This document shows positions 2,012-16,836 of a DNA stretch of 64,000 nt, piece after piece. The DNA comes from Natrinema amylolyticum (GTDB taxonomy: Archaea; Halobacteriota; Halobacteria; Halobacteriales; Natrialbaceae): contig NZ_JAIWPJ010000004.1 in NCBI RefSeq assembly GCF_020515625.1, positions 124,001 to 188,000 on the forward strand. The letters run 5' to 3'. The first letter of the stretch is position 1. Each line of letters starts with the position of its first letter. The notes under the pieces are model-generated. The model searched no databases, had not been told where the DNA came from, and saw nothing but the letters and a program-made list of their open reading frames with translations. A program made the position numbers and the translations under genes.

Positions 2012-2427
2012 CGTTTCACCTCCCGGGGAACCGAGAACTTGAAGGAGTTGATCGGCCGCTCACCGTCGTCGAACAGTTCGCGGAACCGGGCGACGACCTC
2101 GGTCCCGACCGACAGCTCGTCGAGGTCCGTCTCGGTCAGCAGGCCGTAGACGCGAGCGGATTCGCCGGAGCCGTCTTCCTGTGGCAAGTCGACGATCGCT
2201 AGTGGCTGTGGCACCTCGATATCGTCGGGAAGGTACTCTTGGACGACGAAGGTCTTGATCTCGCCCCGCTCGGCGAGTTGCACCTCTTCGAACGTCGCCG
2301 GTGCGTCGCCACAGCGTTTGCACGTCCGCTTTTCGTCCGGAAACGACACGTAGCCACACGACTGGCACTCGAATGCCAGCAGGCGTTGATCTTGTTCTCT
2401 GGTTCGGTGATATCGTGGTCCACTCAT
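2008..2427 (-). CDS. DUF35 zinc-ribbon/OB-fold protein, thiolase partner
   Basis: This 139-residue protein has an N-terminal zinc ribbon with two Cys pairs (CQSCG and CKRCG, about residues 21-40), then an OB-fold region with the IVDLPQEDG strand typical of DUF35. Such proteins bridge thiolase-fold enzymes with HMGCS-like or hydratase partners and help bind CoA esters. It overlaps both neighbours by 4 bp (ATGA-type junctions), which suggests translational coupling and a stable three-protein complex. It has no obvious catalytic residues of its own. Confidence 0.9.
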   Translation of the reverse strand: MSGPRYHRTREQDQRLLAFECQSCGYVSFPDEKRTCKRCGDAPATFEEVQLAERGEIKTFVVQEYLPDDIEVPQPLAIVDLPQEDGSGESARVYGLLTETDLDELSVGTEVVARFRELFDDGERPINSFKFSVPREVKR

Positions 2428-3419
2428 GCGTTTGGCACCCCCTGGTAATCGTATCGCTCGCGGTACTCGAGGTGCTTGGTGTACGGAACGTACTCCTTGG
2501 CCTCGAGTTGCTCCGAGACGGTCAACCCGTCGGGGTCGTTCGCTCCGTCGGCAACCGAGACGACGAAAGCGTCGGCACCACCCTGGCCGTAGGCGACGGC
2601 ACCGATCGTCGAGCCCGGGTCGACGGATTCGATCGCGTGCGCCAGATCGAGCAGCAGCGTCGCCGTTCCCGCGTAGCCGACCTCATTGAACGTCGACACG
2701 CGTTCGGCGTCGATCGGCTCGAGCGCCGTTCGGGCGAGCCGGAACCCGGGAGCGCTGGCGACGCCGTACTCGGGATCGGAGTCGGCCTCGGCTCGGTCGA
2801 AAGCCGTCGACACCGCCGGTGCGACGCCCTGACGCCGTTCGAACCGGGCGTCGCCAGCGGTAGCTGATTCGCCGTGTTCGCGGTGACGTTCGAGGAACCC
2901 CGTGGTCGCCTGGCCGATCGCGTCGATGGTCGCCATCGGATCGTCGCGTTCCGGTCGGAGAACGAGAGCGCCGGCACCGGCACCCATCGTCGACTCGTCA
3001 TCGCCGCCGGATTCGACGGGCATGATGTCGACTGACGCGACGACGACAGGCTCGTCGGTCGCGCGAACGTACTCACAGGCCGTCGCCAGCGCGTCGGCCG
3101 CCGCACGGCCGCTGGCCTGGAAATCACCGGTTCGGACGTCGGTCGACATATCGGCTCTGTACGCGATTTGAGCCGCGATGCCGTGTTCGGCGAATTGGTC
3201 GCTAATACTCGCCGTAAATACCGCTGCAACGTCCGCAACAGACGTTTTCGATCGCTCAAGGGCTGTCGTCGTCGCCTCGCTCGCCATCGTTACGTGGTTT
3301 TCGTCGCGAGCGGGAACCGCACTCTCACCCTGTCCGCGGCCGCCGTGTTGGGCAGCGATGTCGCTGCGATCAATTCGATACAGCGGAACGTAGCCGCCAG
3401 CACCGTCAATTACAACCAT
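2424..3419 (-). CDS. HMG-CoA synthase-like protein lacking the catalytic Cys
   Basis: A 331-residue thiolase-superfamily protein of the HMG-CoA synthase-like group. The N-terminal DENHVTMASEA stretch matches the region holding the synthase Glu. The segment expected to carry the nucleophilic Cys reads TGDFQASGRAA (about residues 98-107), with no Cys, and no clear His-x-Pro motif is seen later. The C-terminal tail (EYVPYTKHLEYRERY) resembles tails of archaeal HMGCS homologues. As first gene of the operon it probably serves as a scaffold or non-canonical enzyme with the DUF35 and thiolase proteins. True HMG-CoA synthase activity for isoprenoid synthesis looks unlikely. Confidence 0.75.
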   Translation of the reverse strand: MVVIDGAGGYVPLYRIDRSDIAAQHGGRGQGESAVPARDENHVTMASEATTTALERSKTSVADVAAVFTASISDQFAEHGIAAQIAYRADMSTDVRTGDFQASGRAAADALATACEYVRATDEPVVVASVDIMPVESGGDDESTMGAGAGALVLRPERDDPMATIDAIGQATTGFLERHREHGESATAGDARFERRQGVAPAVSTAFDRAEADSDPEYGVASAPGFRLARTALEPIDAERVSTFNEVGYAGTATLLLDLAHAIESVDPGSTIGAVAYGQGGADAFVVSVADGANDPDGLTVSEQLEAKEYVPYTKHLEYRERYDYQGVPNA

Positions 3420-5301: not shown

Positions 5302-5548
5302 CACAGACCGTCGTCCGACTACCGAATCGTGATACCGTAGACCGTCCCCTGTCACGGTCAGTGTTCGACGCTGTTCTCCGTTTAGTTCGTTCCCCCTCCT
5401 GGTCTTTCGACTAATGCAGGTATCACCCGACGGTGATTTTCAATGACGGGGCGAGTCGACGAACAGGGGACCCCAATCTACTTAACCAAATTGTCCGTAT
5501 CTTCGGTAGTCATGTGGTCGCAACCTCCGACTGAAAACGGTGATCAGC

Positions 5549-6616
5549 GTGTCAGATAACGATCGGTATCTGGACAGGCTCGTCGACGAAGGTGCGTTAC
5601 GACGGTATCTCGAGGACGTGCTCGGCGAAGCCGAGTCCGTCTCGGTCCTCCGCCACGACGAAGGCCATTCGAACGAGACGTTGTTCGTCGAGTGGGACGA
5701 CCGGGAGTTCGTGGTGCGTCGGCCACCCGCCGGAGAAACCGCAGACACGGCTCACGAGGTTCTCCGGGAGTATCGAACGATCGACGCCCTACAGGAGACG
5801 GCAGTACCGGTTCCGGAGACCGTTATCGCGTGCGAGGACGAGTCGATAATCGGCAGCGAGTTCTACGTCATGGTTCGAGAAGCGGGAGACGTCCTCAGAG
5901 ACGCGGAACCCGAACGGTTCGCGACGCCCGAGTATCGGTCCCGGATCGGCGAGGAATTAGTCGATGCGCTCGCGAGCATCCACTCAGTTGACTATGAAGC
6001 GGTCGGACTGGGCGACTTCGGTCGACCGGCCGGATTCACCGAACGGCAGGTCGACCGATGGCGACAACAACTCGAGTGGGCGTTCGAGGTAACAGAAAAC
6101 GAGCGCGAAGTACCCGAACTCGAGGCGATCGGTGACTGGCTTCAGGAACACGTTCCGTCGAGCCACGCCCACACGCTGGTTCACGGGGATTACAAACTCG
6201 ACAATGTGCTGTTCGAACCGGGCGTCCCGCCGCAGCTGGGTGCCATTTTCGACTGGGAACTCTCTACGCTCGGCGACCCCCTCACCGATCTGGGGTGGAT
6301 GCTACTCTTCTGGCATGATCCGTCGGACCCGGAACCCGCGATGCCGGAACTGATGGGGACGTTCATGGCTCGAGAAGGGTATCCCACTCGAGACGAACTC
6401 GTCGAGCGATACGAGCGACAGACCGGCGTCGAATTCGAAAATCGTCGCTTCTATCAGGTTCTCGCAGCGTACAAGATGGCCGGACTCGGCGAGATGTTCT
6501 TCCGGCGGTATCTCGAGGGGAACTCGGCAGATCCCTTGTATCCGAAGATGGAAGACGGCGTGCCGCTTCTCGCTGAACAGACGCTTGCACTCATCGAGGG
6601 CGAGAATCGCCTCTGA
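5549..6616 (+). CDS. phosphotransferase family protein (ACAD10/11-like APH fold)
   Basis: About 355 residues with the aminoglycoside-phosphotransferase kinase fold. The catalytic-loop motif HGDYKLDNVLF lies near residue 211 and the metal-binding IFDWE near 233, followed by STLGDPLTDLGW, which is characteristic of the ACAD10/ACAD11-associated group. These kinases are linked to acyl-CoA metabolism, and in the mammalian homologues to phosphorylation of 4-hydroxyacyl-CoAs. A GTG at 5549 gives MSDNDRYLDRL; a GTG three codons upstream (5540) is also possible. An acyl-CoA dehydrogenase gene follows on the same strand, supporting a joint role. Confidence 0.85.
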   Translation: MSDNDRYLDRLVDEGALRRYLEDVLGEAESVSVLRHDEGHSNETLFVEWDDREFVVRRPPAGETADTAHEVLREYRTIDALQETAVPVPETVIACEDESIIGSEFYVMVREAGDVLRDAEPERFATPEYRSRIGEELVDALASIHSVDYEAVGLGDFGRPAGFTERQVDRWRQQLEWAFEVTENEREVPELEAIGDWLQEHVPSSHAHTLVHGDYKLDNVLFEPGVPPQLGAIFDWELSTLGDPLTDLGWMLLFWHDPSDPEPAMPELMGTFMAREGYPTRDELVERYERQTGVEFENRRFYQVLAAYKMAGLGEMFFRRYLEGNSADPLYPKMEDGVPLLAEQTLALIEGENRL

Positions 6617-6808
6617 TGGCCACCGAGGCAGGAAATATGGGGGAAAGTAGGGAGACGAACGCCATCGGTGAGCGGGTGTAAATCGCGTCGACATCCGGAT
6701 CGAAATGTGACGATTAAAATAAATAAAATATGATCTATCGGCGTCATTCTCCGAGTGTCGCCTGACTAACCAGAACCCTTTACTTGGGACCGGGTGACAC
6801 ATACGGTA

Positions 6809-7951
6809 ATGCTATCCCTCTCAGCGGAACAGGAGTTGGTCGTATCGTCACTCGAGGATCTCGCCGCGTCGGAGTTTGCCGACGCCGCGTTCTCGTGGAA
6901 CGGGGACCTCCCGATAGAGAACATCGAACTGCTCGCCGACCGCGGTTTTCTCGGATTGAATATCGCAGAGGAGTACGGCGGCGGCGGGATGGGTGAATTC
7001 GAAGCGATGCTCAGCATCGAAGCGGTCGGACGGGTCTGCCCCGACACGGCCGAGTACCTCTACAACCAACAGATGGTCGCACCCCGAGCGATCGAAATGT
7101 TCGGCTCCGAAGCCGTCAAAGACCGATACCTCCCGGGCGTCACCGCTGGTGACGAAAGTATCGCGGTCGCGATTTCCGAGCCGCAAGCCGGATCGGATGT
7201 CGGGGCGATGACCACCCGCGTCGAAGCTGCGGACGGCGACCTCGTGTTGAACGGGGAAAAGGTATGGGTGAGCAACATTCCGCACGCATCGGCCGTCGTC
7301 GTCTGGGCGAAGTTCCCGGACGGACACGGTTCGGTGGTCGTTGACCTCGAGGACAACGAGGATCGGGTCGAGATCGAACAACACTACACGAACATGGCGG
7401 GCCACACGCAGACGCAGTTCCGCATGCACGACATCGTCGTCCCTGAGGAACACGTGCTGACTCGAGGGAAGGGAGGGTTCAAACAACAGCTCCAAGCATT
7501 AAACTGGGAGCGTCTCGGGAGCGCAACGCTCGCGAATACGATTGCGCGATGTGCACTCGACAGGGCGTTGGAGTACGGCCAGCAGCGCGAGCAGTTCGAT
7601 CAGCCGATCGCGGACTTTCAGGGGATCGAGTGGAAGCTCGCGGATATGGTCAAAGAGCTCGAAGCGTCACGGTCGCTGACGTACCGAGCAGCGATGAACG
7701 CGGAAGAACAGGGTCGAATCCCGGACCGTTTGGACGCCTCGTTGGCGAAACTCTACTCCGGCGAGATGGTCGAGACAGTGGTCAGCGAGGCGCTGCAGAT
7801 CCACGGTGCAAACGGCTACCAGCAGGGACACGCACTCGAGTACCTCTACAGACTCGCCCGCGGCCGTCGGCTCGCGGCGGGAACCGACGAGATTCAGAAG
7901 AACCAGATCGCGGCGGCGCTCAAACGTGACGGGCTTCCGTCGCTGACCTAA
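6809..7951 (+). CDS. acyl-CoA dehydrogenase
   Basis: A flavin-dependent acyl-CoA dehydrogenase of about 380 residues, with N-terminal helices (LSLSAEQELVVSSLEDL), a middle FAD-contact stretch (SEPQAGSD) and a C-terminal IHGANGYQQG segment. The position of the catalytic Glu in medium-chain enzymes (EGT-x-EIQ) reads AAGTDEIQ here, so the base must come from another place, as in isovaleryl-CoA-type enzymes. ATG at 6809 is preferred; a GTG at 6794 in the same frame would add five residues. It probably works with the upstream phosphotransferase, as the two domains are fused in eukaryotic ACAD10/11. Confidence 0.9.
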   Translation: MLSLSAEQELVVSSLEDLAASEFADAAFSWNGDLPIENIELLADRGFLGLNIAEEYGGGGMGEFEAMLSIEAVGRVCPDTAEYLYNQQMVAPRAIEMFGSEAVKDRYLPGVTAGDESIAVAISEPQAGSDVGAMTTRVEAADGDLVLNGEKVWVSNIPHASAVVVWAKFPDGHGSVVVDLEDNEDRVEIEQHYTNMAGHTQTQFRMHDIVVPEEHVLTRGKGGFKQQLQALNWERLGSATLANTIARCALDRALEYGQQREQFDQPIADFQGIEWKLADMVKELEASRSLTYRAAMNAEEQGRIPDRLDASLAKLYSGEMVETVVSEALQIHGANGYQQGHALEYLYRLARGRRLAAGTDEIQKNQIAAALKRDGLPSLT

Positions 7952-7972: not shown

Positions 7973-8752
7973 TCAGGAGGTGTACTCCCGGTCGTACTCG
8001 GGCTCCCGTCCGTCGCTGAACGCTCGAACCGCCTCGACGTGTTCCTCGTCATTGACACAGTTCCACTGGTACTCGATCGCGCGTTCGCAGTGTGTCTCGA
8101 AGTCCTGTTGTGGGTCGACAAGTTGTTTCGTCTGCTGGACCGCTGTGGCGGGAAGGTCGCGGACCGTTTCGGCGAACTCCCGCGCGGAAGCCAACGGGTT
8201 GCTCGAGACGCCCGCGGCGAGTCCGAGTTCCTCGGCGGCGTCGGGCGTGATGTCCTTTCCGGTCAGCAGGTACTCGCGGGCTTTCGCCTCCCCGATGAGT
8301 CGCGGCAGTAGCCACGCACCACCGTCGCCCGGAACGAGACCGATCCGAACGAACCCCTCTCGGAGGACGGCGTCTTCCCCGACGTATCGAATGTCGCAGG
8401 CGAGCGCAAAGTCACATCCGGCGCCGATCGCGGGCCCGTTGACGGCTGCGACGGTCGGCTTCCGCATACTCCGGAGCTGACGAACGACGTTCTGGACGCT
8501 CCACAGGTACGCGCCGTACTCCTCTTTCGACAGCGAACTCCAGTCCGGCATGCTCTCGACATCGGCTCCGGAACAGAAGCCGTCTCCGGCCCCGGTGAGG
8601 ACGACAGCGTACGCCTCGTCGTCGTCTCGAGCCCGTCGCAGCGTCTCGTTCAACTCGAGGATCATCTCCCGGTGGAACGCGTTGTAGACCGCCGGCCTGT
8701 CGAGCGTGATCAGTGCGTATCCGTCTTCGCACTCGTATTCTACGTCGGACAT
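7973..8752 (-). CDS. enoyl-CoA hydratase/isomerase family protein
   Basis: A 259-residue crotonase-fold protein with the oxyanion-hole segments FCSGADVESM and AIGAGCDFALACD. The two Glu residues used by classical hydratases are not kept: the first position is Asp (GAGCD) and the second aligns with Phe in the REGFVRIG stretch. It may therefore be an isomerase, hydrolase or C-C lyase rather than a hydratase. It converges with the acyl-CoA dehydrogenase gene and lies downstream of the MmgE/PrpD gene on the same strand. Confidence 0.87.
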   Translation of the reverse strand: MSDVEYECEDGYALITLDRPAVYNAFHREMILELNETLRRARDDDEAYAVVLTGAGDGFCSGADVESMPDWSSLSKEEYGAYLWSVQNVVRQLRSMRKPTVAAVNGPAIGAGCDFALACDIRYVGEDAVLREGFVRIGLVPGDGGAWLLPRLIGEAKAREYLLTGKDITPDAAEELGLAAGVSSNPLASAREFAETVRDLPATAVQQTKQLVDPQQDFETHCERAIEYQWNCVNDEEHVEAVRAFSDGREPEYDREYTS

Positions 8753-8882: not shown

Positions 8883-10238
8883 CTAGAACCGTGCTAGAAG
8901 ATCTGCAGTGTCGGAGACGTCGCGCAGCGTCGTGAGCGACTCGAGCGTCGGTTCGACCGCGTCGAAGCCACTGGCGTAGTCGCCGCACATTCGATACTTC
9001 TCTCGAAGTTCCTCGAGGGAGAGCGGTTCGGCGTTCGTTCCCGGGGGTCGCTCTTGTGTGCGTTCGTACTCCGTCCCGGACGCCGTCGAGAGGGTAACCG
9101 TCGCGGCGTTCGAATCGTACTCGAGACTCGAGTCGACACTGAAGGACGTGCATTCGCGGACGCGCTGGACGTCGGGGTCGTTGATCCGCTCGTCGTCGAA
9201 CGCTGTCAATCCGACGTGACCGTCGACGAGCGCGCAAGCGACGACGTACTCCATCGAGAACTTGGCCTCGAGTCCCGTCGACGGATCCGCGTGGTGGAGT
9301 GCGTCCTCGGCGCCCTGAGACGCCGTGACGTGAACGTCATCGATGGTCTCGGGGTCGATATCGTGTTCCTTCGCGAGTTCGGCCGCACCGTAGATCGCAG
9401 CGTGCGTGTAGTAGCAGCAGGGATACTTCTTGACGTCGATGCCGTCGGACAGCAATGCCCACTCCGACCCGGGGGTCGGGAACCGCTCGAGGTCCGGGTC
9501 CTCGCTACTGTAGAGATCGAGAAACCCGCGGTCGCCGGTAATTGCAGCCGAATCGGCGGTGACGCCCTCGGCGGCGAGCAACGCTGCGGTCGTCCCCGAC
9601 CGCGCGGCCTGGCCCACGTGAACCGGTTTCGTCATCGAACCGAAGTTGCGTTTGAGACCGGCTGGCATCGAAGCGGCGATATTCAACGCGTGGGCGACCT
9701 CTTCGGCCGAGAGTTCAAGGAGACGGGAGACGGCCGCTGCGGTGCCGAAGGTGCCGACCGTGGAGGTCGCGTGCCATCCGTCCTCATAGTGTGTCGGACT
9801 GATCGGTCGTGCGACGTAGTGCTGTGTCTCGAATCCGGCCGCGTAGGCGGTGATGAGTTCCGCCCCCGTGGCGTTTCGCCGTTCGCCGACGGCGAGGAGT
9901 GGGGCGACCATCGGCACGCTCGGATGGCCGTCCATCACCGACAGTGCGACGTCGTCGAAATCGAGGCAGTGTCCGGCTGTGGCGTTGACGAACACTGCAT
10001 CGGACAGTGGCAGCGAGTCGTCGGTGCCGAGAACGGTCGTTTCACCGCTGTCGGATCCGACTGCTGAGATGATCCGTCGTGCGGTGTCAGTCGCGGAACC
10101 GGCGAGCGTGACGCCGACGGTATCGAGAACGGCGCGTTCGATCAGCGAAACGGCTTCGTCCGGAACCCCGTCGAACGACACCGACGCGACGAACGTTGCA
10201 AGGTCCGAACACGGATCAGTATCGGCTTCCGTCGTCAT
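8883..10238 (-). CDS. MmgE/PrpD family protein
   Basis: About 451 residues of the MmgE/PrpD family, which includes 2-methylcitrate dehydratase and cis-aconitate decarboxylase-like proteins. Recognisable parts are ERAVLDTVGVTLAG near the start, GHCLDFDD in the first third, and KKYPCCYYTHAAI in the middle. The reaction could be dehydration of a tricarboxylate or related hydroxy acid, for example after propionyl-CoA release, but no methylcitrate synthase is nearby. ATG at 10238 (MTTEADTD) is preferred over one nine codons upstream. It lies between a crotonase and the DUF35/thiolase-like pair, all leftward. Confidence 0.85.
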   Translation of the reverse strand: MTTEADTDPCSDLATFVASVSFDGVPDEAVSLIERAVLDTVGVTLAGSATDTARRIISAVGSDSGETTVLGTDDSLPLSDAVFVNATAGHCLDFDDVALSVMDGHPSVPMVAPLLAVGERRNATGAELITAYAAGFETQHYVARPISPTHYEDGWHATSTVGTFGTAAAVSRLLELSAEEVAHALNIAASMPAGLKRNFGSMTKPVHVGQAARSGTTAALLAAEGVTADSAAITGDRGFLDLYSSEDPDLERFPTPGSEWALLSDGIDVKKYPCCYYTHAAIYGAAELAKEHDIDPETIDDVHVTASQGAEDALHHADPSTGLEAKFSMEYVVACALVDGHVGLTAFDDERINDPDVQRVRECTSFSVDSSLEYDSNAATVTLSTASGTEYERTQERPPGTNAEPLSLEELREKYRMCGDYASGFDAVEPTLESLTTLRDVSDTADLLARF

Positions 10239-10436
10239 AGTTTCACAGGTGTGAGTGCCGTGCATATAGTTTCTCCTCTCGAGACGGCAGTCCGTTCGAA
10301 TAGATTAATTAATACAGCTATCGGACTCAAGTAGCGATCCCGATCGGAGACGACTGGCAACGGGTACCTGTTCGGCCACCGGCAGCGTGTTCGTATGGCG
10401 GAATAGTATGCATATCAAGTCGTACCTACGACCGGT

Positions 10437-10847
10437 TTACTCCTCGAGCGGGACGAACACCGGGACGGCAGCGTCCGCCGACTCGAGCGGAACGAATCGG
10501 ACCTCAACGCGGGTTCCGATGTCGACCGCACCGGGTTCGCAATCGAGGTTTGTCAGCAGTCGAGGACCCTCATCGAGTTCGACGTACGCGACGATCAGCG
10601 GCAGATCCTCCTCTGGCCAGCCACTCATCGTTCGGGTCACCGAATAGGAGTAGACGGTTCCGGTGCCGGCCGCCTCTCGCCAGTCGACATCGTCGCCGAA
10701 GCAATCGGGGCAGTACTCGCGAGGATAATGATAGACGAGGCCACAGTCGCCGCATTCTCGAACGAGTAACGTCTCGTCAGCGGCGGCCGACCAGTATCGC
10801 TCCGTTTCAGGGTTGATCTCGGGAGCGGGGCGTGGCTCCCAACTCAT
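10437..10847 (-). CDS. DUF35 zinc-ribbon/OB-fold protein
   Basis: A 136-residue DUF35 protein with the usual rubredoxin-like knuckles (CGDCG and CPDC, about residues 36-54), followed by an OB-fold containing SYSVTRTMSGWP and IVAYVELDEG. Its start overlaps the stop of the thiolase-like gene by 4 bp. In actinobacterial steroid degradation, pairs of a DUF35-bearing protein and a thiolase-fold protein (ChsH2-Ltp2 type) act as a retro-aldolase. The unusual active site of the partner here makes that comparison relevant. Confidence 0.9.
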   Translation of the reverse strand: MSWEPRPAPEINPETERYWSAAADETLLVRECGDCGLVYHYPREYCPDCFGDDVDWREAAGTGTVYSYSVTRTMSGWPEEDLPLIVAYVELDEGPRLLTNLDCEPGAVDIGTRVEVRFVPLESADAAVPVFVPLEE

Positions 10848-12019
10848 CGGTCTTCACCTCCCAGAACGACCGTCGCAGCGCCGTGACGGGTCCCGATACT
10901 GCCGCCGGTGCCGTGGGCGAGCGCGATATCGGCATTGACCTGCACTTCGTCGTTGGCGTCGCCGCGAAGCTGTCGAACCGCTTCGATAACCTTCGTCATC
11001 CCGCCGCGATTTGCCGGGTGATTCGAGCACAATCCACCGCCGTCCGTATTGAACGGCAACGCGCCGTTCGGAGCTTTGAGCGTCCCCCCTTCGACGAACG
11101 ATCCGCCCTCGCCCTTCTCGCAGAACCCGAGGTCCTCGATCGCCTCGAGAACGGTGATCGTAAACGAATCGTAGATCGACGCGTAGTCGACGTCCGTCGG
11201 TTCCAGCCCCGCCTCGTCGAACGCTCGGCTACCGGATTCCTCGGCGGCGGTCCGCGTGAGATCGATTCGCCCGGCCCGGTGGTGGCCGACCGACTCGCCG
11301 TGACCGAGCACTTCGACGCACTCGCGCTCGAGTCGGGATCGGACGTCCTCGGAGACGACGAGCAGTGCACCGCCGCCGTCGGAGATGACACAGCAATCGA
11401 GCAGGTGTAACGGGTCGGCGACCACGCGCGAGGAGACGACATCCTCGACGGTCACGGGGTCCTGATACATCGCGTGTTCGTTGAACTGTGCGTGGTGTGA
11501 CGCGGCAACCCGGATTTCAGCGAGTTGTTCGGCCGTCGTTCTGTATTCGTGCATGTGTCGCTGTGCGGCCATGCCGTACATGCCGATGTTCGTCGCGCCG
11601 TAAATACGCTCGAAACTGTCCTGTGCCGTACGAATCGCTCGAGCCCCGGATCCGGTCGCCTGTCCTCGCGACCGCGGTCTCCCGGCGAGCGTGATGAGCG
11701 CCACATCGCAGGTTCCATTTCGAATCGCGGCGACTGCGTGGCCGACGTGACTGATATACGAGGAACCCCCGAAGTCGGTCGTGTCGGCGTAGGACACGTC
11801 GAGGCCGAGATAATCGGCCATGATGAGCGGCGGCAGCCCGCTCTCGTACTCCGGCATCCCTGCCGTAAAGTACGCGTCGATCGCGTCCTTCTCGAGGCCG
11901 GCGTCCTCAAGTGCGCCGCGTGCCACCTCCGCATGTAATTGCATCGTCGATTTGTCCGGTGCCTCTCGCGTCGGGTGTTCGTACGCGCCAGCGACATAGA
12001 CTGGTGACTGTGTTGCCAT
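10844..12019 (-). CDS. thiolase-fold protein without nucleophilic Cys (Ltp2-like, candidate retro-aldolase)
   Basis: A 391-residue lipid-transfer/SCP2-type thiolase homologue. Where a thiolase has its acyl-accepting Cys, this protein reads TTDFGGSSYISHVGHAV. The usual HDCF motif reads IYDSFTI, with Tyr for His, and the GHPIGATG loop is replaced by SNHPANRGG. These changes argue against thiolysis and fit the Ltp2 group, in which tyrosines rather than Cys support retro-aldol cleavage of side-chain acyl-CoAs. It is translationally coupled to a DUF35 gene. The family assignment is firm; the reaction is inferred. Confidence 0.82.
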   Translation of the reverse strand: MATQSPVYVAGAYEHPTREAPDKSTMQLHAEVARGALEDAGLEKDAIDAYFTAGMPEYESGLPPLIMADYLGLDVSYADTTDFGGSSYISHVGHAVAAIRNGTCDVALITLAGRPRSRGQATGSGARAIRTAQDSFERIYGATNIGMYGMAAQRHMHEYRTTAEQLAEIRVAASHHAQFNEHAMYQDPVTVEDVVSSRVVADPLHLLDCCVISDGGGALLVVSEDVRSRLERECVEVLGHGESVGHHRAGRIDLTRTAAEESGSRAFDEAGLEPTDVDYASIYDSFTITVLEAIEDLGFCEKGEGGSFVEGGTLKAPNGALPFNTDGGGLCSNHPANRGGMTKVIEAVRQLRGDANDEVQVNADIALAHGTGGSIGTRHGAATVVLGGEDR

Positions 12020-13483: not shown

Positions 13484-14689
13484 ATGGTTCATTCGTGGCG
13501 GGACAGCGTTCCGCTGTCAGACGAACAGACGCTCGTCCGGGATAGTATCCGGGATATCTGTGAGGAGTTCGATGCGGAGTACTGGCGTGAGAGAGATATC
13601 AACGAAGAGTACCCACAGGAGTTCGTCGACACGCTCAGCGAGTACGGCTGGATGGGGATTCTCATCCCAGAGGAGTACGGCGGAGCAGGCATGGGAACGC
13701 CAGAGGTTGCCGTCATGATGGAAGAGATCGCCGCGAACGGCGGCGGGTTCAGCGCTGCACAGGCGATTCACGGCGGCATCTACAACAGCACGCCCATCGT
13801 AAAGTACGCTGACGAAGAACTCAAAGAAGACCTGCTGCCCAAGGTCGCCGACGGCGATGTTGCCATTCAGTCCTTCGGACTCACGGAGCCAAACGCGGGA
13901 TCCGATTCGACGTCGATCGAAACGAGTGCGGAACGAGACGGAGACGAATACGTCATCAACGGCCAGAAGATTTGGATCTCACGAGTCGACGCGACAGACT
14001 ATCTCGTGTTAATGGCCCGAACGACCCCGCGCGACGAGGTCGAGAAACGAACCCAAGGTATCTCGATGTTCCTCGTCGACATCGAGGAAGCCTACGCCCA
14101 GGACGCCCTCGAGATTCAGCAGATCCCGAAGACCGCAAGCGGCTTCGTCCACTCCTACGAGATGTGGTTCTCTGACCTCCGACTGCCGGCGGACCGACTC
14201 ATCGGCGACGAAGGGCGCGGCTTCTATCAAGTCTTGGACGGACTCAACGAGGAGCGACTGGCTATCGCGGCCGAATGCGTCGGTCTCGCGGAGGTCGCGC
14301 TCGAGCGCGGTGTCGAGTACGCGAACGAACGGGAGGTGTTCGGCTCCGCGATCGGCTCGAATCAGAGCGTTCAGCACCCGCTCGCGGAGGCCTACACCGA
14401 GACTCTGGCGGCGAAGCAACTCCTGTACGGTGCCGCCGAGACGATCGAGACTGCTAGCCAGAAGGAAACCGGCGCGATGGCAAACGCTGCGAAGTATCGG
14501 GCGGCCGAGGCCGCCTTCGCCGCCGCGGACGCCGCGGTCCAGACCCACGGCGGGTTCGGCGTCGCTCGCGAGTACGACGTCGAACGCTACTTCAGGGAAG
14601 CTCGACTCACGAGGATCGTCCCGATCACCCAGCAGCTGGTCCTCAACTATATCAGCGAGAACGTGCTGGGACTGCCCCGCTCGTACTGA
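13484..14689 (+). CDS. acyl-CoA dehydrogenase
   Basis: About 401 residues of acyl-CoA dehydrogenase fold: SDEQTLVRDSIRDIC at the N-terminus, LTEPNAGSDSTS for flavin and substrate contact, and a C-terminal THGGFGVAREYDVERYFREA. The usual catalytic EGT-x-EIQ segment reads IVPITQQL, so the base is not at the medium-chain position. ATG at 13484 (MVHSWRDSVPLSD) gives the normal family length; the frame extends upstream without similarity. It is divergent from the IclR gene and probably co-transcribed with the MaoC gene that follows after 27 bp. Confidence 0.9.
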   Translation: MVHSWRDSVPLSDEQTLVRDSIRDICEEFDAEYWRERDINEEYPQEFVDTLSEYGWMGILIPEEYGGAGMGTPEVAVMMEEIAANGGGFSAAQAIHGGIYNSTPIVKYADEELKEDLLPKVADGDVAIQSFGLTEPNAGSDSTSIETSAERDGDEYVINGQKIWISRVDATDYLVLMARTTPRDEVEKRTQGISMFLVDIEEAYAQDALEIQQIPKTASGFVHSYEMWFSDLRLPADRLIGDEGRGFYQVLDGLNEERLAIAAECVGLAEVALERGVEYANEREVFGSAIGSNQSVQHPLAEAYTETLAAKQLLYGAAETIETASQKETGAMANAAKYRAAEAAFAAADAAVQTHGGFGVAREYDVERYFREARLTRIVPITQQLVLNYISENVLGLPRSY

Positions 14690-14716
14690 TCGACGGCTAC
14701 TCCGGAACCCATACCC

Positions 14717-15322
14717 ATGACAAACGACACTGCCGAAACCGACGAAACCGAGGCATCGACAGCGAAACGGCTCGTAGAGGGATGGCACGGTCGCTATTAC
14801 GAGGACTTCGAGGTCGGCGACGTGTACAAACACCCCTTCGGCCGCACCGTCACCGAGACGGACAACGTCTGGATGACCAACGTGACGATGAACCTCAATC
14901 CGATGCACTTCAACGAGGCCTACGCCGCGGAGACGGAGTTCGGCGAGCGCCTCGTCGACGGCACCTTCGTCATCGCCCTGGCCGTCGGCATGAGCGTCAT
15001 CGACGTCTCGGTCAACGCGACGGCGAACCTCGGCTACGACGACATCCGCCACCACAGTCCGGTCTTCCACGGAGACACCATCTTCGCCGAAAGCGAAGTG
15101 CTCTCGAAGCGCGAACTCGAGTCCCGCGACCATGTCGGTATCGTCGAGACCGAATTGCGGGCGTACAACCAACACGGCGACCTCGTGCTCAGTCTCGAGC
15201 GCACGCCGATGGTGCTGAAACGCGAACACGCCGACCCCTCCGCTGCGGAGCCGCCGGGCTGGCCTGAGGGGATCGGTACGCAACCCGACGAGACGACTGA
15301 CGGCACCGGCTCTGACGACTAG
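14717..15322 (+). CDS. MaoC family (R)-hydratase
   Basis: A 201-residue hot-dog-fold protein. The MaoC hydratase signature is seen in YYEDFEVGDVY, then NPMHFNEAYAAETEFGERLVDGTF, carrying the Asn/His pair that hydrates 2-enoyl-CoA. The C-terminal 30 residues are acidic and probably disordered. It follows the acyl-CoA dehydrogenase by 27 bp, so the two likely perform successive dehydrogenation and hydration of one acyl-CoA. Confidence 0.88.
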   Translation: MTNDTAETDETEASTAKRLVEGWHGRYYEDFEVGDVYKHPFGRTVTETDNVWMTNVTMNLNPMHFNEAYAAETEFGERLVDGTFVIALAVGMSVIDVSVNATANLGYDDIRHHSPVFHGDTIFAESEVLSKRELESRDHVGIVETELRAYNQHGDLVLSLERTPMVLKREHADPSAAEPPGWPEGIGTQPDETTDGTGSDD

Positions 15323-15639
15323 CGGCCGCTGCTTTTCGGCGGGTACGGACGCGTTTGACGGCGAACCGGTGCCGCGAGCCATTGCTCGACGATATTGCGT
15401 GCCGAGAACCTGTGCGTCGACCGTCATTCGTCGTCCTCCACCTCGGTGTCGCCTCTGTACTTCGCGGGCATCGTCGCGGTCAGCAGACCGGTACCTTCGC
15501 TTGGAACTACTCAGGTTTCACGCGACGAGTTGACTGAAAACATTACTCGCGACTCGGAATCGAAGGGGACTGAAATGGTTCGTCGAGGTTCGAAAAACAC
15601 GTTGAACTTCGGTGTTACCGAACGTCATCGCTCCCTCGA
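15323..15639. other. Intergenic region between MaoC and 3-hydroxyacyl-CoA dehydrogenase genes
   Basis: These 317 bp separate two convergent genes. On the minus strand, 26 codons reading PSEGTGLLTATMPAKYRGD end at a stop near 15426 and look like the C-terminal scrap of a lost haloarchaeal gene. Nothing else is recognisable. Confidence 0.35.
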
Positions 15640-16836
15640 TCAATAGAACGTTTCGTCGTTCTTCGCCTTCTCGACGAGCAGCTCGCACGGCAACGTTTCG
15701 GCGAGCTTGTTCGTGTCCTCGTGACGACTGGCGACCTCGGTCAGTTTCTCGAGGATGACATCGGCACCGACTTCGTCGGCTTTCTCGAGGGGGCCGACCG
15801 GCCAGTTGCCGCCGAGCCGTGCACCGGTGTCGACGTCTTCGACACTGGCGACGTCGTTCTGGACCATCTTGGCGGCTTCGTTGACGATCGGAGCCCAGAC
15901 GAGCAGCGTATCGAATCCCTGTCCTTCGCCAACCGAAATCTGTGGCTCATCGCGCTCGTCGTAGTCGTAGTAGCCGGCGTCCGCCTTGCGCCCGTACCGA
16001 CCCTTATCGTACAACTGGTGGAGAATGGGACACACTTCCGTATCGTAGGACATCGGTCGGTCGTCCTCGAGGTGATCCTGCTCTCCCTCGACACGAATCT
16101 GGATGCCGCCGGTGAAGTCGGCGAGTTCGAACGGTCCCATCGGGAATCCTTCCTTGTACTTCATCGCGGAGTCGATCTCTTCGATCGAGTGTTCGCCCCG
16201 ATAGACCATCCAGGCCGGGCCCTCGCCATAGGGGCGCATCAGCCGGTTGACAATGAACGAAGGGATGTCCATCTTGCAGCGAATCGGCGTCTTGTCGAAC
16301 GACTCGATAAGGGCCTCGGTGGTGTCGCCGACGCTCTCAGGTGCGTGTTCGGTCATGATAACTTCGACCAGATCCATCAGCATCGGCGGATTGAACCAGT
16401 GAGTCCCGACGACCTGTGACGGCCGATCGGTCACTTCGGCGAGTTGGGTGATATTGAGTCCCGACGTGTTCGTCGAGAGGATCGCGTCCTCCGGTGCGAC
16501 GTCGTCGAGGTCCTGAAAGATGTCCTCCTTGACCGCCTGCTGTTCGACAGCCGCTTCGGTCACGAAGTCCGTGTTCCCGGCCGCTTCCTCGAAGTCGCTC
16601 GTGAACGTAAGTCGGTCCATCGCTTCGTCGATCTCCGTCTCCGTCGCGGCCCCGTTCTCGACTGACTTCTCGTACGACCACTCGATCTGCTCCTCGGCTT
16701 CCTCGAGTTGCGACTCGTCGATGTCGTTCACGTAGGTCTCGTACCCTGCCAATGCGGCGACGGCGGCGATCCCACGGCCCATCTGTCCGCCTCCGACGAC
16801 AGTAATGGTATCGATAGTATCGATAGTGACTACCAT
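15640..16836 (-). CDS. 3-hydroxyacyl-CoA dehydrogenase
   Basis: A 398-residue NAD-dependent 3-hydroxyacyl-CoA dehydrogenase. The N-terminal Rossmann motif is VVGGGQMGRGIAAVAA. The catalytic His sits in VGTHWFNPPMLMDLVEV, followed by the conserved FIVNRLMRPY. At about 400 residues it has more than one C-terminal dimerisation domain, longer than the short human-type enzyme of about 300. It oxidises 3-hydroxyacyl-CoA to 3-oxoacyl-CoA, between the MaoC/crotonase and thiolase steps encoded nearby. Confidence 0.92.
   Translation of the reverse strand: MVVTIDTIDTITVVGGGQMGRGIAAVAALAGYETYVNDIDESQLEEAEEQIEWSYEKSVENGAATETEIDEAMDRLTFTSDFEEAAGNTDFVTEAAVEQQAVKEDIFQDLDDVAPEDAILSTNTSGLNITQLAEVTDRPSQVVGTHWFNPPMLMDLVEVIMTEHAPESVGDTTEALIESFDKTPIRCKMDIPSFIVNRLMRPYGEGPAWMVYRGEHSIEEIDSAMKYKEGFPMGPFELADFTGGIQIRVEGEQDHLEDDRPMSYDTEVCPILHQLYDKGRYGRKADAGYYDYDERDEPQISVGEGQGFDTLLVWAPIVNEAAKMVQNDVASVEDVDTGARLGGNWPVGPLEKADEVGADVILEKLTEVASRHEDTNKLAETLPCELLVEKAKNDETFY

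Follow-up and report, generated by a model that had tools for sequence, protein, structure and literature searches.

A thiolase-fold/DUF35 gene pair of Natrinema amylolyticum without the thiolase cysteine as a candidate DUF35-dependent retro-aldolase

In Natrinema amylolyticum, a gene for a thiolase-fold protein that lacks the thiolase nucleophile lies next to a gene for a DUF35 protein, which raises the question of what reaction such a pair might catalyze. The original prediction was a possible side-chain retro-aldolase with features of the Ltp2 group, which would suggest that sterol-like, terpenoid, or other branched acids are degraded. Both open reading frames were confirmed where they had been predicted within the window (the whole 64,000-nucleotide stretch analyzed), with an overlap of 4 bp, and a Gly (Gly85) was indeed found where thiolases have Cys. 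The pair and its key positions are as follows.

10844..12019, minus strand: thiolase-fold gene without Cys (P0001, 391 aa), putative retro-aldolase subunit; Pfam Thiolase_C_1/Thiolase_N, NCBIfam NF006010
10437..10847, minus strand: DUF35 partner gene (P0002, 136 aa), zinc ribbon and OB fold; Pfam zf-ChsH2 and OB_ChsH2_C
10701..10754, minus strand: zinc motif of P0002, Cys4 (C-x2-C-x10-C-x2-C, Cys32 to Cys49), read from the translation
11765..11767, minus strand: Gly85 codon of P0001, position of the thiolase nucleophilic Cys, from alignment with Cys thiolases and CtSal Gly89
11171..11173, minus strand: Tyr283 codon of P0001 (YDSF), corresponding to the catalytic Tyr residues 302 in CtSal and 294 in TcLtp2
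11165..11167, minus strand: Ser285 codon of P0001, aligned with Cys304 of CtSal, His296 of TcLtp2, and Ala of IpfD
11018..11020, minus strand: His334 codon of P0001; this GHP-loop His is kept, corresponds to Tyr344 in TcLtp2 and to Gln352 in CtSal, and is proposed, by inference, as the general acid

P0001 matched the NF006010 (PRK08142) profile over its full length with 574 bits, above the curated cut-off of 462, and its nearest solved structures were 4u4e, CtSal (9myr), and TcLtp2 (6ok1). The best PDB sequence match of P0002 was the DUF35 of TcChsH2 (6ok1_B, E 4.6e-19).

Solved structures and a 44-sequence alignment placed Gly85, Tyr283, Ser285, and His334 in the active site of P0001. Gly85 aligns with the thiolase Cys within the segment TTDFGGSSYISH, which begins at residue 80. 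The predicted exchange of the catalytic His for Tyr was borne out: the motif IYDSF is present, and Tyr283 occupies the His position of Cys thiolases. Both marks of a Cys thiolase, the nucleophilic Cys and the HDxF His, are thus absent. The GHP loop, likewise predicted to be altered, has changed from G-H-P to N-H-P (CSNHPANRGG), but its His (His334) is still there. Residues G84, G85, S87, Y88, Y283, D284, S285, F286, N333, H334, and P335 were invariant in 38 homologues (down to ∼60% identity), and dN/dS against haloarchaeal orthologues was 0.10 to 0.16 for P0001 and 0.09 to 0.25 for P0002 (NG86; rough values, as synonymous sites were near saturation). Given the invariant site and the low dN/dS, the missing Cys reflects neither chance nor decay.

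In a maximum-likelihood tree of 44 proteins, P0001 fell into a PRK08142 clade of 18 rows (support 100/100), nested in a clade of 25 rows that also holds 4u4e and PRK06158-like proteins (100/98). A 33-row Cys-less clade (100/99) united P0001 with CtSal, TcLtp2, and IpfD and left the Cys thiolases outside; in a tree of 110 rows, the Cys-less clade received SH-aLRT values of 97 to 99. Grouping of the P0001 branch with Cys thiolases was rejected by an AU test (p 3e-6), which assumes that the group was named beforehand and was applied with long branches present. The tree and the AU test therefore did not return a placement among active thiolases, the outcome named at the outset as speaking against the prediction. 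All members of the Cys-less clade for which we found a characterization are retro-aldolases, and P0001 has in common with this clade the Gly at the Cys site, the Tyr of YDxF, its ancestry, and an adjacent DUF35 gene. The more specific match to the Ltp2 group did not hold: Tyr344 and His296 (YDHF) of Ltp2 correspond to His334 and Ser285, and P0001 sits on a separate supported branch instead of branching with TcLtp2. Of the Sal features, Cys304 (YDCY) is replaced by Ser285 (YDSF), and a MaoC-fused C3H1 DUF35 is lacking. Since the defining acid residues of both groups are absent, P0001 belongs to neither, though its mode of action is most likely like that of Ltp2, Sal, and IpfD.

If P0001 is an aldolase, which residue serves as its acid? 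In the 110-row tree, the 98 rows of the Cys-less clade all had Gly85, Tyr283 was present in every one of them, and position 334 was occupied by His in 84 of these, by Tyr in 9 (Ltp2 and IpfD among them), and by Gln in 5 (Sal among them). Residue 285 was rejected as the general acid for 31 Gly85 relatives that have Ala285 and keep His334, so that His334 is the natural acid candidate there. By the same comparison, His334 is likely the general acid of P0001.

An AlphaFold2 model of P0001 had a mean pLDDT of 79.4 and a pTM of 0.86, with pLDDT below 50 at residues 114 to 142 and 328 to 337, the latter including the His334 loop. The first of these segments coincides with the β4-α4 loop, with a shallow alignment as an alternative cause of the low values; this loop is disordered in CtSal, TcLtp2, and BbsB (PMC12329534). 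The closest structures to the model were CtSal (Z 44.9), TcLtp2 (44.4), 7yvy (44.2), and 4u4e (43.8), the last two being of the DUF35-type thiolase kind, and classical thiolases scored ∼31 to 32. Because the four best matches were nearly tied, the fold was discarded as a means of separating an aldolase from a DUF35-type thiolase.

We consider it reasonably probable that P0001 and P0002 form a DUF35-dependent retro-aldolase, which would convert a β-hydroxyacyl-CoA into acetyl- or propionyl-CoA and a ketone or aldehyde. Judging from the neighboring genes, the β-hydroxyacyl-CoA would be produced by an acyl-CoA dehydrogenase and an enoyl-CoA hydratase. By homology, the CoA ester would bind in the thiolase-type cleft, completed by the DUF35 subunit. 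Tyr283, acting as the base, would remove the proton of the β-hydroxyl group, upon which the C-C bond would break; the oxyanions would be held with the help of the backbone NH groups of Gly85 and Gly373, and His334 would presumably protonate the enolate. A thiolytic acyl-enzyme cannot arise in P0001 because position 85 carries no Cys. The likely substrates would be β-branched, tertiary, or alicyclic β-hydroxyacyl-CoAs, which lie beyond ordinary β-oxidation.

The gene neighborhood of the pair in the window is listed below; neighbors in high-GC loci were called by tblastn labeling and codon scoring.

6794..7951, plus strand: acyl-CoA dehydrogenase, divergent neighbor; relatives (88 to 90%) near the pair in genome G005 and in Halomarina
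7973..8752, minus strand: crotonase-type enoyl-CoA hydratase, possible supplier of 3-hydroxyacyl-CoA; close relatives (74 to 81%) found near the pair in six further haloarchaeal loci
8883..10265, minus strand: MmgE/PrpD-family gene downstream of the pair; Pfam MmgE_PrpD_N/C, near the pair also in G005, L056, and L134
12454..13335, minus strand: IclR-family gene upstream, possible regulator; Pfam IclR_C/HTH_IclR
15640..16836, minus strand: 3-hydroxyacyl-CoA dehydrogenase family protein; relatives linked to the pair elsewhere

In genome G005, the whole order of the window from CaiB to the acyl-CoA dehydrogenase was kept (77 to 90%; DUF35, 76%). A DUF35 gene adjoined the thiolase-like gene in 72 of 73 loci, and DUF35 was the only neighbor cluster to recur in most loci (69 to 72), the next being found in 12; the substrate is therefore not fixed by conserved context. 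The other neighbors vary and include acyl-CoA dehydrogenases, hydratases, SDRs (frequent in bacterial loci), CoA transferases, and uptake systems. In Roseomonas and Variovorax, two acyl-CoA dehydrogenases and a MaoC-type hydratase lie beside the pair, a set that we take to resemble the mycobacterial igr layout. Four haloarchaeal genomes (G010, G032, G027, and G006) encode relatives of the 15640..16836 gene product (80 to 86% identical) immediately upstream of the thiolase-like gene.

The Cys4 motif was kept by 56 of 79 DUF35 partners (∼70%) and was absent from the other 23 (e.g., L067, L068, L075, L083, and L090), as well as from IpfE; to judge by these sequences, zinc can apparently be lost from the DUF35 ribbon. 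Elsewhere in the window, a gene for an APH-type phosphotransferase (5540 to 6616, plus strand) precedes the acyl-CoA dehydrogenase gene, an order also found in Variovorax (L135), and may possibly encode an acyl-CoA-pathway kinase. An HMG-CoA-synthase-like protein (2424 to 3419, minus strand) scored 70 bits with TIGR00748 (cut-off, 353); its gene adjoins those of a Cys thiolase (854 to 2011) and a second DUF35 protein (2008 to 2427). DFQASGRAA is read at the expected synthase Cys site, so that this protein, too, may lack the nucleophile.

Taken together, the shared clade with CtSal, TcLtp2, and IpfD, the AU test, the conservation of Tyr283 and His334, the adjacent DUF35 gene, the igr-like neighbors, the predicted fold (closest to CtSal and TcLtp2, though nearly tied with two DUF35-type thiolases), the ibuprofen-CoA cleavage by ipfDE (PMC9195938), and the aligned Tyr residues, whose catalytic role has been characterized in CtSal and TcLtp2 (PMC12329534), speak for an aldolase. 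Against it stand the Tyr283/Ser285/His334 set, which is without assayed precedent, the inactivity of the CtSal C304S variant (PMC12329534), the dehydrogenase and SDR neighbors, the low pLDDT of the loop that bears His334, and the variable neighborhood beyond DUF35. We weigh these points in favor of the aldolase, with some confidence. The main fact that it leaves unexplained is the linkage to 3-hydroxyacyl-CoA dehydrogenase. This linkage, along with the bacterial SDR neighbors, would fit a cleavage that follows oxidation to the β-keto ester, and a Cys-independent enzyme might use the same Tyr/His site to cleave a β-ketoacyl-CoA, by hydrolysis or another retro-Claisen route, or to decarboxylate a malonyl-type CoA. 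Like true thiolases, P0001 has kept the GHP His, and TbSLP, a Cys-less protein of the same fold, decarboxylates malonyl-CoA, if slowly (0.005 per s; PMC12329534). However, an acyl-enzyme is impossible without Cys, CtSal showed no malonyl-CoA decarboxylation (PMC12329534), and the clade's characterized members are all of the retro-aldolase type. We therefore regard activity on β-ketoacyl- or malonyl-type CoA esters as unlikely.

Another residue could in principle replace the missing nucleophile and make P0001 an active thiolase or acyltransferase. The candidate is Cys331, which lies three residues ahead of His334 and was present in at least 90% of the 38 homologues. Yet this residue is replaced by Ser in Natrarchaeobius and in the sister group and by Ala in L060, and it does not occupy the nucleophile position, where Gly85 is invariant among the same 38 sequences; such an activity thus appears very unlikely. 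Somewhat less probable still is a catalytically inert scaffold or CoA-binding partner: DUF35 proteins can serve as structural staples (PMC12329534), but the nearly complete conservation of the pocket and the low dN/dS fit an active enzyme better.

Which acids a retro-aldolase of this kind would attack was approached through the genome. KshA_C (PF19298), the one steroid marker searched, gave no hit at E 0.001 against the genome, which is 99.98% complete, in a search of limited sensitivity whose sole responding control stayed below the cut-off. No steroid degraders were reported among archaea in a survey of more than 8,000 genomes (PMC4810484). Sterol degradation, part of the original prediction, is disfavored by both results, and the substrate of P0001/P0002 is probably not a steroid. 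The least probable alternative, and a highly improbable one, is accordingly that P0001 is a genuine sterol or bile acid side-chain aldolase like Ltp2 or Sal, since it lies on another branch and has another acid residue, even though fold, DUF35 partner, and Tyr base are shared and CtSal and TcLtp2 are its closest structural matches. An ibuprofen-like aromatic substrate was also rejected, as the only match for a ring-hydroxylating dioxygenase alpha subunit in the genome lies on another contig and the window holds no Ipf-like cluster. In Polaromonas JS666, a relative from the sister branch neighbors a gene with the annotation cyclohexanecarboxylate-CoA ligase, which is suggestive at most. From context, branched or alicyclic acids are plausible substrates of the pair; the wider range of terpenoid, alicyclic, or other branched acids is possible.

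Close matches to P0001 were found in 26 of 391 haloarchaeal genomes, representing 15 of 86 genera, and at least 588 related stretches were found in bacterial genomes. Among the matches listed, bacterial relatives with 59 to 65% identity were mostly Alpha- and Betaproteobacteria. The family is thus chiefly proteobacterial and patchy in haloarchaea, which does not support an archaeal speciality. Two genomes of another genus carried copies 95% identical to the P0001 locus, and the best copy found in the same genus was 88% identical. As far as sequence comparison can tell, the distribution fits transfer from bacteria and among haloarchaea. On a plasmid of Natrinema caseinilyticum (L133), two PRK08142/DUF35 pairs lie ∼2 kb from each other in opposite orientation (10355 to 11934 and 14001 to 15583); their thiolase-like proteins are 66% and 82% identical to P0001. 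Another same-genus copy (L027; G003:C2:275486-276493) is truncated, contains an in-frame TGA, and is probably a pseudogene. The P0001 host genome also encodes further thiolase-fold paralogues that lack the Cys; its place is taken by Ser in L015 and L016, which have HDMF, and by Gly in L017, which has YAPF.

Cys-less, DUF35-dependent retro-aldolases are already known (Ltp2, Sal, and IpfD); what would be new here is the putative catalytic set Tyr283/Ser285/His334. We tentatively propose, at somewhat less than even confidence, that P0001 represents a third class of thiolase-fold retro-aldolases, the His type, in which the Tyr of YDxF would be the base and the GHP His the acid, with residue 285 dispensable. 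This class would be the most populous Cys-less branch (Proteobacteria, Actinobacteria, and haloarchaea), would finish the β-oxidation of branched or alicyclic acids, and would include the first such archaeal aldolase. In the records examined, proteins of the branch carry the annotation "thiolase domain-containing protein" or "acetyl-CoA acetyltransferase," despite having no thiolase nucleophile. If they are aldolases, a C-C cleavage step has been misread in many predicted β-oxidation pathways, and in haloarchaea their presence would suggest that branched or cyclic acids are broken down.

How does the pair compare with known systems? Bacterial members of NF006010/PRK08142 share the active-site motifs of P0001, and the model is named just "thiolase domain-containing protein"; our literature search, which included cyclohexylacetate and naphthenic acid degradation, found no function for this branch. 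The closest solved structure by sequence, the "putative thiolase" 4u4e of Sphaerobacter thermophilus (PRK06158-like; 43 to 46% identity), resembles P0001 in Gly85, YDSF, and HP, but belongs to a sister group and another family and has a different GHP loop (LSYTHPGMYG versus LCSNHPANRGG); its PDB description gives no function. Two further complexes also combine a thiolase fold with DUF35. The acetoacetyl-CoA thiolase/DUF35/HMG-CoA synthase complex (6esq), however, carries both the Cys (position 85) and the His (position 283), and benzoylsuccinyl-CoA thiolase BbsAB (7pxp), which was outside the tree sample, has HDAF at the Tyr site in the aligned part.

Among the characterized aldolases, CtSal-CtShy, the bile acid aldolase of Comamonas testosteroni (9myr), shares the Cys-less fold, the Gly at the Cys site, the catalytic Tyr, and a DUF35 partner, but has Cys304 as its acid in place of Ser285 and Gln352 in place of His334; the DUF35 of CtShy is fused to a MaoC hydratase and has a C3H1 finger (PMC12329534), whereas P0002 is a stand-alone Cys4 protein. 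The steroid aldolase TcLtp2-ChsH2 of Thermomonospora curvata (6ok1) has the same fold, base Tyr in YDxF, and Cys4 spacing in its DUF35. In contrast to P0001/P0002, it uses Tyr344 as the acid (His334 in P0001) and His296 at the oxyanion (Ser285), and its DUF35 forms the C-terminal domain of a hydratase. Atf1/ChsH4 of Mycolicibacterium neoaurum combines an aldolase with a stand-alone DUF35 protein (138 aa) in one operon (PMC10398937), but acts on sterol side chains, and Atf1 is 56% identical to Sal1, which assigns it to the Sal branch. IpfD/IpfE of Rhizorhabdus wittichii MPO218 (L141) resembles the pair in its separate DUF35 gene beside a Cys-less gene, the Gly at the Cys site, and the Tyr of YDxF; it differs in YDAF, a Tyr at position 334, an IpfE without Cys4, and adjacent ring-hydroxylating dioxygenase genes. 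Since ipfDE accounts for retro-aldol cleavage of ibuprofen-CoA (PMC9195938), the Cys-less clade also takes aromatic, non-steroid substrates.
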